A DNA stretch of 33,271 nt, from NCBI GenBank assembly GCA_012516175.1, contig JAAYWZ010000203.1:1-33271 (forward strand). Direction: 5' to 3'. The DNA is from Bacilli bacterium. GTDB lineage: Bacteria; Bacillota_I; Bacilli_A; Haloplasmatales; Haloplasmataceae. The position numbers and the translations under genes are program-made. Below, piece after piece: positions 5,893-12,790 of the stretch. Under the pieces are notes generated by a model. The model had not been told where the DNA came from. It saw nothing but the letters and a program-made list of their open reading frames with translations, and searched no databases. Each line of letters opens with the position of its first letter. The first letter of the stretch is position 1.

Positions 5893-6011
5893 TGATGATA
5901 ACCTCTTTCCTTATATTAATATTATAACGAAAACAACAACTTTTTTAAATTAAAATCAGAAAATCTCCATCATCGTCGTATCTATATATGAACACACTGA
6001 AGGAGGTTTTT

Positions 6012-6374
6012 ATGTTAAATCAAGTCATCATCGTCGGTAGATTAGTCAGAGATCCCGAAATTCGTATCACTAATGATGGCAAGCGAGTTGCGAATGTGAC
6101 AATCGCCGTTAACAGAAGCTACAAAAATAATGAAGGACGTTATGAAACGGATTTTATTAACTGTACATTATGGGAAGGGATTGCTCAAGCTACTGCTGAT
6201 CATTGTCAAAAAGGTAGTATCATTGGTGTAAAAGGTCACCTCTTAATGCGTAATTTAGAATTAGAAAATCGGAAACTTACTTATCCAGATTTAATCGCTG
6301 AAACAGTTACATTCATTAGTCGTAATAAAAATACCACCTTACAAATAAGTGATAATAATGCAAAAATAGAATGA
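6012..6374 (+). CDS. ssb: short single-stranded DNA-binding protein (SsbB-like)
   Basis: An OB-fold SSB: NQVIIVGRLVRDPEIR, VANVTIAVNRSY, TDFINCTLWEGIAQ and GSIIGVKGHLL follow the family order. I start it at the ATG at 6012 because AGGAGG (6001-6006) precedes it; the upstream in-frame ATG at 5988 has no site. At 120 residues it is short and ends in a polar tail (SDNNAKIE) instead of the acidic DDDIPF-type tip through which main SSBs recruit partner proteins. This resembles B. subtilis SsbB, the competence-associated paralogue, rather than the replication SSB. It is alone on the plus strand, closed by a terminator, and not next to rpsF or rpsR. Confidence 0.88.
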   Translation: MLNQVIIVGRLVRDPEIRITNDGKRVANVTIAVNRSYKNNEGRYETDFINCTLWEGIAQATADHCQKGSIIGVKGHLLMRNLELENRKLTYPDLIAETVTFISRNKNTTLQISDNNAKIE

Positions 6375-6404: not shown

Positions 6405-7946
6405 TTATATTAACTTAATTAAACCCTTCTCCGTTAATTCATAAACTTCATCAAAGACTTCTTCTAGGAATTTACGGTCATGGGTTATACAAATTACACA
6501 ACCTTTATAGTTTAATAGTAAATTATGAATCACTGGTGCACTTAAAGGAGAAAGATTCCGCGTAGGTTCATCTAATAAAAGAACATTATTCTTACTTAAA
6601 ACCATTTTTAAGAAGAGAAGTTTCACCTTTTGACCACCACTTAGTTGTGATGTTTTATTTTCCATCTCTTCTCTTGTAAACTGCAGAGCACCCATTATTT
6701 TTCTGATTCTTGCTTCATCATAAACACCTGATGTTTTCATCACGTAGTGCAGTGCTGAATCATTAGAAATGAATAACTCTTCGTATTTTTGACTCATATA
6801 GCCAACTGAAATATCTTCCCGGTTTTTTAAATCATCATAAATACATTTTAATAATGTACTTTTTCCACAGCCATTTTTACCAATGATAGCTACCTTTGCA
6901 TCGCCTTGCACATATAACTTTACTTCTTGAGCGAGTATCCGTTCATTAATCTTTAGTGGTGCAAGGTAAAAATCAAGTACAACCTTACCTTTAGGAATTA
7001 ACACATCTTCTTCAAAAAATAAATCAATCGCTTCTTCTCTTTCGGGAATCTCTAGGAATTCTGCTTTTTCTTTTTCTAATCTTCTTTCAATACTCTTCAA
7101 TGCATGAATTTTCTTCTTCAGTAACCTACCAGTACTAGGGTTACGCACTGTTTGATCTTGAGCAGCTTCAACACGACTATAAATTTGGCGAAATCTTTCC
7201 ATTTTCTTTTTATAGTCTGCTCGTTGCTTACGGGCAATCATCTCTTGTGAATCAAGAGCTAATTTTCGAAATTCTTTATAGTCACGATAATTCATTTTAA
7301 CTACTTCATGGGTAGGTTTTCGTTTCTTATGGATAAGACTTAAATGAATTATTCCATTAGAAGCATTCTCTAAAAGTTTCTCATCATGCGACACGAATAA
7401 TAGTGGTCGTTCTTCATTTAAGATAAAGTTTTCTAGAAAAATGATTGTCTCTAAATCTAAGTCATTAGTTGGTTCATCTAAGAGTAGAAGATCAGGTTCA
7501 TGTAGGAGAATTTTGGCAAGTCCTAGTTTAACTAGTTCACCACCACTAAAATGATTTAATTTAGGATTATGATCAATTAAATTAGAATCAAATCTTAAGC
7601 GTGTTAATACTTGATCCAATTTTCCTAATAACTCGTAACTTTCTAATTTAATTTCACTATCAGGATATTCTTTCAACAAATAATCATAAACTGGCACATC
7701 ATACCATTCTTCAAGAATGGTTTGCGGTAGATAACCAACTTTTCCTTTTATATTAATTACACCTTTTACATCACAATAATCTAAACTTTGCGGATTATAT
7801 ATAGCTTTTAATAAGGTTGATTTACCATTACCTTCTAAACCAATTACCGCAAACTTATCTCCCCTATTTAATGTAAAGGAAAGATTATCGATTATTGTCC
7901 GATTCTCTTTATCTATGTGAATCGCTAAATTCCTTACTTCGAGCAT
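6405..7946 (-). CDS. ABC-F family ATPase, possible ribosome protection protein
   Basis: A 513-residue soluble protein with two ABC ATPase domains and no membrane segment, typical of ABC-F translation factors, which bind the ribosomal E site. NBD1 has Walker A (36-43), FSGGE (133-137) and LLLLDEPT (153-160); NBD2 has Walker A (356-363), LSGGQ (435-439) and VLLLDEPT (455-462). Between them is a long basic helical linker (about 215-320), the part that reaches the P-site tRNA or peptidyl-transferase centre. After Walker B, NBD2 reads RNLSPLS rather than NDLD. The length of the linker and the upstream leader ORF suggest an antibiotic-resistance-type member, but the spectrum cannot be read from sequence. 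AAGGAGGG precedes the ATG. Confidence 0.82.
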   Translation of the reverse strand: MLEVRNLAIHIDKENRTIIDNLSFTLNRGDKFAVIGLEGNGKSTLLKAIYNPQSLDYCDVKGVINIKGKVGYLPQTILEEWYDVPVYDYLLKEYPDSEIKLESYELLGKLDQVLTRLRFDSNLIDHNPKLNHFSGGELVKLGLAKILLHEPDLLLLDEPTNDLDLETIIFLENFILNEERPLLFVSHDEKLLENASNGIIHLSLIHKKRKPTHEVVKMNYRDYKEFRKLALDSQEMIARKQRADYKKKMERFRQIYSRVEAAQDQTVRNPSTGRLLKKKIHALKSIERRLEKEKAEFLEIPEREEAIDLFFEEDVLIPKGKVVLDFYLAPLKINERILAQEVKLYVQGDAKVAIIGKNGCGKSTLLKCIYDDLKNREDISVGYMSQKYEELFISNDSALHYVMKTSGVYDEARIRKIMGALQFTREEMENKTSQLSGGQKVKLLFLKMVLSKNNVLLLDEPTRNLSPLSAPVIHNLLLNYKGCVICITHDRKFLEEVFDEVYELTEKGLIKLI

Positions 7947-7972
7947 TATACCCTCCTTATTTAATTAAGTGA

Positions 7973-8002
7973 TTATCTTTTTAGTGTTACGATACTAATC
8001 AT
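7973..8002 (-). CDS. nine-residue leader peptide upstream of the ABC-F gene
   Basis: ATG at 8002 followed by nine sense codons and TAA encodes MISIVTLKR. An AAGGGG ribosome site (8010-8015) lies seven bases upstream, as good as that of any gene here. It ends 26 bases before the ABC-F ATG. Short translated leaders are a known feature of erm, msr and vga-type resistance genes, where drug-stalled ribosomes switch on the downstream gene. TGATTA at its start can pair with TAATCA just after its stop, but I see no clear terminator between it and the main gene, so the mechanism remains inference. Confidence 0.55.
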   Translation of the reverse strand: MISIVTLKR

Positions 8003-8035
8003 CTTCTCACCCCTTAAAAGAATTGTACTATGGTT

Positions 8036-8041
8036 ATTATA
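8036..8041 (-). promoter_or_regulatory. candidate -10 box upstream of the ABC-F leader
   Basis: TATAAT on the minus strand with TTGCTT (8060-8065) 18 bases upstream. Transcription would start near 8029, just ahead of the leader ORF. A competing TATAAT lies at 8098-8103 with TTGTCA at 8119-8124 (15-base spacing). Confidence 0.4.
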
Positions 8042-8052
8042 CAATAAACAAT

Positions 8053-8080
8053 TAGGTCTAAGCAAATCTGCTTAGACCTA
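8053..8080. repeat. 12-bp perfect hairpin upstream of the ABC-F gene
   Basis: Arms 8053-8064 and 8069-8080 pair perfectly around a four-base loop. The plus strand continues with TTTTATC; the minus strand has no T tract. It could be a plus-strand terminator, a backup stop for the tRNA transcript, an operator, or part of the ABC-F leader if the more distal promoter is used. Confidence 0.55.
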
Positions 8081-8131
8081 TTTTATCACGATATTAAATT
8101 ATATTAATCAACACTATTTGACAAAGAGCCA

Positions 8132-12553: not shown

Positions 12554-12790
12554 CCAAAATAAAATCCCTAGCTTAACGCTAGGGACGAATAAACCGCGGT
12601 ACCACCCTAATTTGTCTAATAAAATCAGACACACTCAAAATCTTAACGCGATTAACGGGCTATCCTACTTAAGTTCAGATAACCAACTCCAGAGCCATGT
12701 TCGATAATACTTATCTTACCTCTTTTCACCAACCGAGGCTCTCTGTGAAGCAAGCATTATCTACTCTTTCCTTCATCGTTTTTTCTATAT
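12554..12790 (-). ncRNA. T-box leader of metG (Met specifier)
   Basis: The T-box core, AGGGTGGTACCGCGG in the RNA sense, is at 12594-12608 on the minus strand. It is followed by a terminator hairpin (arms 12565-12572 and 12578-12585) and a T-rich tract. Upstream, the Stem I signature GAGAGCC, then GGTTGGTGAAAA, then GAAC-ATG-GCTCT is readable; the specifier codon ATG is at 12696-12698. Uncharged tRNA-Met pairs with the specifier and with the T-box, favouring the antiterminator so that metG is transcribed when methionyl-tRNA is low. Confidence 0.97.

Follow-up and report, generated by a model that had tools for sequence, protein, structure and literature searches.

The locus described here raises the question of whether a very short open reading frame, lying directly ahead of an ABC-F gene, belongs to a leader through which that gene responds to antibiotics acting on the ribosome. 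The window, i.e. the whole stretch of DNA analysed (33,271 nucleotides), carries this upstream open reading frame (uORF) on its minus strand at 7973..8002. Read from 8002 to 7973, the frame ATG ATT AGT ATC GTA ACA CTA AAA AGA TAA translates as MISIVTLKR*, and it is recognised from the sequence, from its reading as an ORF and from the enrichment of such frames in the gene family. On the same strand, it is preceded by the Shine-Dalgarno (SD) sequence AAGGGGTGAG (8006..8015), identified in the sequence and by its duplex with the anti-SD, while its stop is separated from the ATG of the ABC-F gene by 26 bases (7972-7947), within which lies the SD of that gene, AAGGAGGG (7951..7958, minus strand). 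An earlier, sequence-only reading of this DNA had proposed a nine-codon frame with a strong SD, followed after 26 bases by an ABC-F gene, and all of these are present.

A likely promoter (8036..8065, minus strand) was read from the sequence upstream of the uORF, with TTGCTT at 8065-8060, an 18-base spacer and TATAAT at 8041-8036, the latter being a perfect match; it was not among the sites listed by a consensus promoter scan of the window. Transcription would likely begin around 8029, ahead of the uORF, which should then be in the message, in a leader of about 83 nt. On the minus strand between 8029 and 7946, the window scan gave no terminator-like site, and no Rfam family reached its gathering score in the window leader, where the matches were all sub-threshold.

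The promoter region lies in the remnant of an old ISL3-family insertion-sequence end (8036..8130, minus strand), with a terminal repeat at 8130-8111 and a palindrome at 8080-8053, recognised through copies elsewhere. Compared with the genome, bases 8130-8036 are 79-81% identical over 95-110 bases to five stretches and 71% to a sixth; the palindrome recurs within three mismatches at seven other places, and the terminal repeat is found within two mismatches in eight copies, the window's among them, one of which adjoins an ORF with a DDE_Tnp_ISL3 match. The ISL3 match reaches the TATAAT box, its last part being AT-rich and weak, and the insertion-sequence element may have been the source of the promoter. 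A perfect 12-base inverted repeat at 8053-8080 in the element end is terminator-like on both strands and overlaps the possible -35 box. The element end sits between a tRNA cluster and the ABC-F leader, with 14 tRNA genes upstream at 9342-8160 and a terminator-like site at 8155-8139. Among 31 relative loci scanned, the ABC-F gene comes just after a tmRNA gene in one (L038) and a tRNA-Cys gene in another (L040); tRNA genes precede the window's too. Elsewhere in the window, a T-box leader (12578-12785, minus strand, 147.5 bits) stands ahead of a 645-aa ORF (12515-10578), which we presume, as a guess, to be an aminoacyl-tRNA synthetase, and a 128-aa ORF (5988-6374, plus strand), which we take to resemble a single-strand DNA-binding protein, is convergent with the ABC-F gene.

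As for the ABC-F gene itself (6405..7946, minus strand), the ORF, profile matches, a protein model and its structural alignment point to a probable ribosome-protection factor of 513 aa. Two ABC_tran stretches in the protein indicate that two ATPase domains are encoded directly downstream of the uORF, and the AlphaFold2 model (mean pLDDT of 81.8, four sequences as input) contains two long linker helices (residues 220-264 and 270-294). The best NCBIfam match, NF000355 (ribosomal protection-like ABC-F equivalog), scored 306.2 bits, below its cut-off of 380 bits. In sequence matches to solved structures, 6ha8 (VmlR, 166 bits) and 7p48 (Sal(B), 160 bits) came out best, followed by the housekeeping YheS (149 bits) and EttA (141 bits), and VmlR2 (141 bits), VgaA (136 bits) and Lsa(A) (88 bits) did no better than these two housekeeping proteins. 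Structural alignment of the model ranked VgaL first (Z of 34.1), then VgaA-LC (32.8), Sal(B) (31.6), VmlR2 (30.6), VmlR (30.2) and EttA (30.1), the last three being tied. On sequence and model together, the likeliest predicted role is ribosome protection of the PLSA type (ARE1, ARE2, ARE6 group); the PADLOC matches resemble generic ATPase matches.

The ABC-F gene was found in 3 of 8 genomes searched in the family (E of 1e-60), 49 of 395 in the class (1e-90) and 20 of 392 in the phylum (1e-120), with the genome of the window counted in, and in 15/49 (1e-140) and 3/34 (1e-120) genomes of two related families. The proteins of two sister species (L002 and L003) are 69 and 68% identical to that of the window. 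For the uORF count, 47 ABC-F upstream regions were used (L001-L009, L012 and L020-L056, where L001 is the window). Left out were L010, where the gene start is missing, L011, which duplicates L003 in both identity and leader, L013 and L014 (30 and 27% identity), L015-L019 (no match), as well as G173 and G255, whose genes are cut by contig ends. The 47 rows are not independent, since the near-duplicates L008/L031, L033/L035 and L055/L056 were kept, and the genes of L008 and L051 have internal stops. The leader of L077, found later, is the same as that of L012.

A uORF was defined as a frame of 3-12 codons within 170 bases upstream of the gene, whose SD forms a duplex with the anti-SD at -11 kcal/mol or stronger, a rule that was fixed after the leaders had been read and for which four thresholds were tabulated. 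Under this rule, 25 of the 47 ABC-F genes, the window included, have a uORF, vs. none of 121 control genes (mechanically predicted ORFs of at least 150 codons, taken from the sampled stretches and the window) and a mean of 0.6 out of 47 (maximum of 2) in dinucleotide-preserving shuffles of the ABC-F upstream regions. At -10 kcal/mol, the figures are 32/47 for ABC-F genes, 1/121 for controls and a mean of 1.3 for shuffles, and the three relatives found later all have a uORF at -10 kcal/mol or better. The sister uORFs sit at the place aligned with that of the window. A -10-like box upstream of the uORF occurs in 33 of 40 leaders, vs. 20.1 expected from shuffles, with a perfect TATAAT in 18 of the 40. 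At -8.5 kcal/mol, a usable uORF is missing in ten of the 47 loci (L012, L021, L022, L023, L025, L026, L030, L034, L038 and L047, the sole listed ORF of the latter overlapping the ABC-F gene), and eight further loci include three without one (L080, L081 and L083) and a borderline case (L079). Nine of these 13 loci lie at 46-54% identity. Loss of the frame in relatives with the same gene, which the sequence-only reading had named as evidence against its proposal, is thus found in part. We hold it, by slightly more than an even judgement and jointly with the whole explanation given below, that the uORF truly belongs to an attenuator in the leader of the ABC-F gene.

For the relatives' leaders, the energy needed to open the ABC-F ribosome site was calculated while a ribosome of assumed footprint edges occupied successive uORF codons. 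This energy replaced the average base accessibility after the first result was known, the latter measure having reached p 0.05 in only 5 of 40 leaders. The count covers 36 leaders whose spacers measure 35 bases or more and whose uORFs were hand-picked, some with weaker SDs; the window and L052, L055 and L056, with shorter spacers, were left out. In 16 of the 36, the site closes by at least 3 kcal/mol between uORF start and stop, vs. a mean of 0.8 and a maximum of 3 out of 36 when the spacers are shuffled. From first to last codon, the cost rises from 4.0 to 11.1 kcal/mol in the sister L002, from 3.4 to 8.4 kcal/mol in the sister L003 and from 2.2 to 11.4 kcal/mol in L005, and one of three later-found relatives, L097, behaves likewise (4.8 to 9.3 kcal/mol). 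Among the predicted structures listed for relatives, an arm that follows the uORF stop (arm B) pairs with a further arm (arm C), or else arm C pairs with the ABC-F SD region (arm D).

The relatives' leaders would accordingly consist of the uORF followed by arms B, C and D. If a ribosome were arrested at the beginning of the uORF, B and C could pair and leave the ABC-F site free, while a ribosome at the uORF stop would cover B, letting C pair with D and shutting the site. Since the start leaves the site open and the stop closes it, drugs arresting ribosomes just after initiation would be expected to turn the gene on. A U-rich tract after arm C of the sisters resembles a terminator; because the stems consist almost wholly of A-U pairs and arm C also pairs with the SD, the sisters are tentatively read as regulated by translational rather than transcription attenuation. 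The view that such a layout is typical of drug-inducible ribosome-protection genes agrees with the uORF enrichment, with the best alignment of the model being to resistance ABC-Fs and with the switch predicted in many relatives.

The 20 of 36 leaders that did not reach 3 kcal/mol may follow other designs, unless the calculation fails to detect their switch. In L029, L033, L035, L039 and L042, the site is costly in every state (8.0-12.8 kcal/mol). These have three-codon uORFs (MRI, MKF, MRF, MKN), and in all computed ribosome states a hairpin covers the ABC-F SD, which points to another design. A search of 12 relative loci against Rfam gave no match at the gathering score.

The leader of the window departs from this arrangement. 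In alignment with the sisters, the only two leaders that align well with it, it has neither the sister uORF stop nor a stretch of about 34 bases that in the sisters separates B from the SD and holds arm C, the anti-SD arm; the junction lies at 7961..7962 (minus strand). The core of arm C, TCTCTTTT, is invariant in six relatives at 55-69% identity (L002, L003, L004, L005, L020 and L084). A remnant of arm B, ACTAAAAAGATAAT, persists at 7972..7985 (minus strand), mostly within the uORF, whereas the matching stretch of the sisters follows the uORF stop. The possibility that the anti-SD arm had been transposed to a place ahead of the uORF was rejected, the longest shared word being of 7 bases, a length attained in 508 of 3000 shuffles and in 280 of 2000 AT-rich 21-mers of the window. 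The computed opening cost of the window site is 9.0 kcal/mol in the free RNA; it declines from 6.4 kcal/mol when a ribosome occupies the uORF start to 3.7 kcal/mol when it occupies the last codons, the reverse of the trend in the sisters. If pairing is also permitted on the 5' side of the ribosome, codons 5 and 6 give 9.2 and 8.2 kcal/mol, before a drop to 3.8 kcal/mol.

The explanation that we consider just about probable, from sequence comparison and folding models, is that this is a new ABC-F uORF-attenuator leader in rearranged form, probably partly derepressed. A deletion of about 34 bases would have removed arm C, and the uORF would now run through the remains of arm B; with C lost and B translated, routine translation of the uORF would keep the ABC-F site open. 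When no ribosome is present, a weak hairpin would close the site, so that either expression without a drug or a weak induction would be expected. The RNA states in this explanation are computed ones, and we infer the translation of the uORF, the drug class, the expression level and the direction of the deletion.

The best-surviving alternative, possible although we doubt it, is that the window leader is a working drug-inducible attenuator of a simpler type, in which a ribosome held on the first codons of the uORF opens a hairpin. Such a hairpin is predicted at 7948..8028 (minus strand), its 5' side formed by the 5' leader with the uORF SD, its 3' side by the spacer with the ABC-F SD, and its loop by the uORF, the fold being of marginal significance. 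Its free opening cost is above that of 386 of 400 shuffles (as high in 14/400), and the drop from 9.0 to 6.4 kcal/mol with a ribosome at the start is equalled in 17 of 400. L055 and L056 offer a strong version of the uORF-in-hairpin design: their uORFs, MDRISF and MDRNSF, themselves form a highly stable hairpin with the ABC-F SD, and the opening cost goes from 20.0 and 16.6 kcal/mol when free to 4.1 and 4.4 kcal/mol, respectively, with a ribosome on the uORF. On the other hand, the z-score of the window fold is only -1.6, with 14 of 200 shuffles as stable; an SD accessibility as low occurs in 40 of 500 shuffles and an energy as low in 47 of 500. Moreover, the site is most open at the last codons, a state reached without any drug. 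As to alternative folds that would mask or expose the ABC-F SD depending on where the ribosome stands, the window yields only a marginal hairpin, together with an opening order opposite to that of the sister switch. The hairpin may mean that some regulation remains.

Less probable is that the uORF merely couples translation or supplies reinitiating ribosomes to the gene, or that it is a relic without regulatory role. The short distance between uORF and gene and the missing switch arm are in its favour, as is the presence of the same ABC-F gene without a usable uORF in the ten loci, and in L080, L081 and L083 among the eight new ones. The peptide also speaks for it: the sisters have MVTVF and MITITC in place of MISIVTLKR, so that the peptide, whose conservation the earlier reading had proposed to check, is not conserved, and at most M[IV][ST][IV] is kept across the three sequences. 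Yet the frame and its strong SD have been kept despite the rearrangement of the leader.

That the nine residues form a specific drug-arrest sequence with Ser or Thr at position 3 is very unlikely. Ser or Thr at this position is the arrest context of phenicols and oxazolidinones, and five of the six nearest leaders fit (MISIV, MITIT and MVTVF within the family, MYTS and MFTNR from near relatives). MDKTL does not, and neither do MFYNR, MNNLL and MENLI, three near leaders found later, so that the motif was rejected. The peptides of other relatives vary widely (MDKTL, MYTS, MFTNR, MYKNN, MRI and MKF among them). Finally, short ORFs are frequent in AT-rich DNA, but a chance ORF of no biological meaning is scarcely conceivable with 0/121 controls, about 0.6/47 in shuffles and sisters carrying the frame at the aligned place.

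The case for this window's leader still sensing a drug is weak, because the switch arm is missing, the fold is marginal and the peptide is not conserved. The claim of a specific drug sensor is borne out only in part, since the window copy is without the arm of a switch that seemingly works in relatives. Tentatively, and with less assurance than for the explanation itself, a large clade of ABC-F leaders in uncultured Bacilli may read the progress of the ribosome along a uORF of 3-9 codons (start being on and stop being off), with the window as a natural constitutive allele, produced when the switch arm was lost beside the end of an insertion sequence from which its promoter may come. With these results, the lineages in which ABC-F genes are under the control of a uORF would come to include those around the Haloplasmataceae. 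About 40 natural leaders with differing peptides, many with start-versus-stop logic, would offer a test of position vs. peptide sensing, in which the window, having lost the switch arm, would serve as the natural control.

In the literature searched, neither the string MISIVTLKR, nor such a clade of leaders, nor a paper with both 'ABC-F' and 'Haloplasma' was found. As a kind, the attenuator can nonetheless not be called undescribed, as it had been: excerpts of PMC9226507 and PMC10201436 present uORF attenuators of ABC-F genes, reported or predicted, for vmlR, vmlR2, cplR, lsaA and lmo0919/vgaL. Short uORFs ahead of ABC-F genes are also proposed there to be arrested by drugs with little context-specificity (PMC10201436, in the excerpts). 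A purely positional sensor is argued against by the vmlR peptide, which is said to matter: its MIN sequence counts for induction by lincomycin (PMC10201436, in part), while the natural variants MDN, MDK and MRK work too (PMC9226507, in part).

According to the excerpts of PMC10201436, the Clostridioides difficile cplR leader, whose uORF follows the consensus MR[I/M], resembles the window kind in that a tiny uORF precedes a PLSA-type ABC-F gene, stalling frees the ABC-F SD and translational attenuation alone represses. It differs in its three-codon uORF and in the intrinsic terminator stem that hides the SD, whereas the window leader has a nine-codon uORF and is devoid of both a terminator-like site and arm C. 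As far as the excerpts of PMC9226507 go, the vmlR leader of Bacillus subtilis is similar in that initiation arrest on the minimal uORF MIN drives a PLSA ABC-F gene, unlike the window in its 219 nt (vs. about 83 nt), four stem-loops, RNA polymerase pausing and terminator. A premature terminator, a trait of vmlR and cplR that is not essential in the latter, is absent from the window leader. In erm(C), as described in the part of PMC10655708 available, competing arms likewise form a translational switch, and a deletion in the leader is reported to give constitutive expression, which offers an analogy for the putative derepression of the window. There, however, a macrolide-arrest peptide controls a methyltransferase gene and it is the leader peptide that was deleted, whereas the window keeps its uORF and the anti-SD arm is missing.
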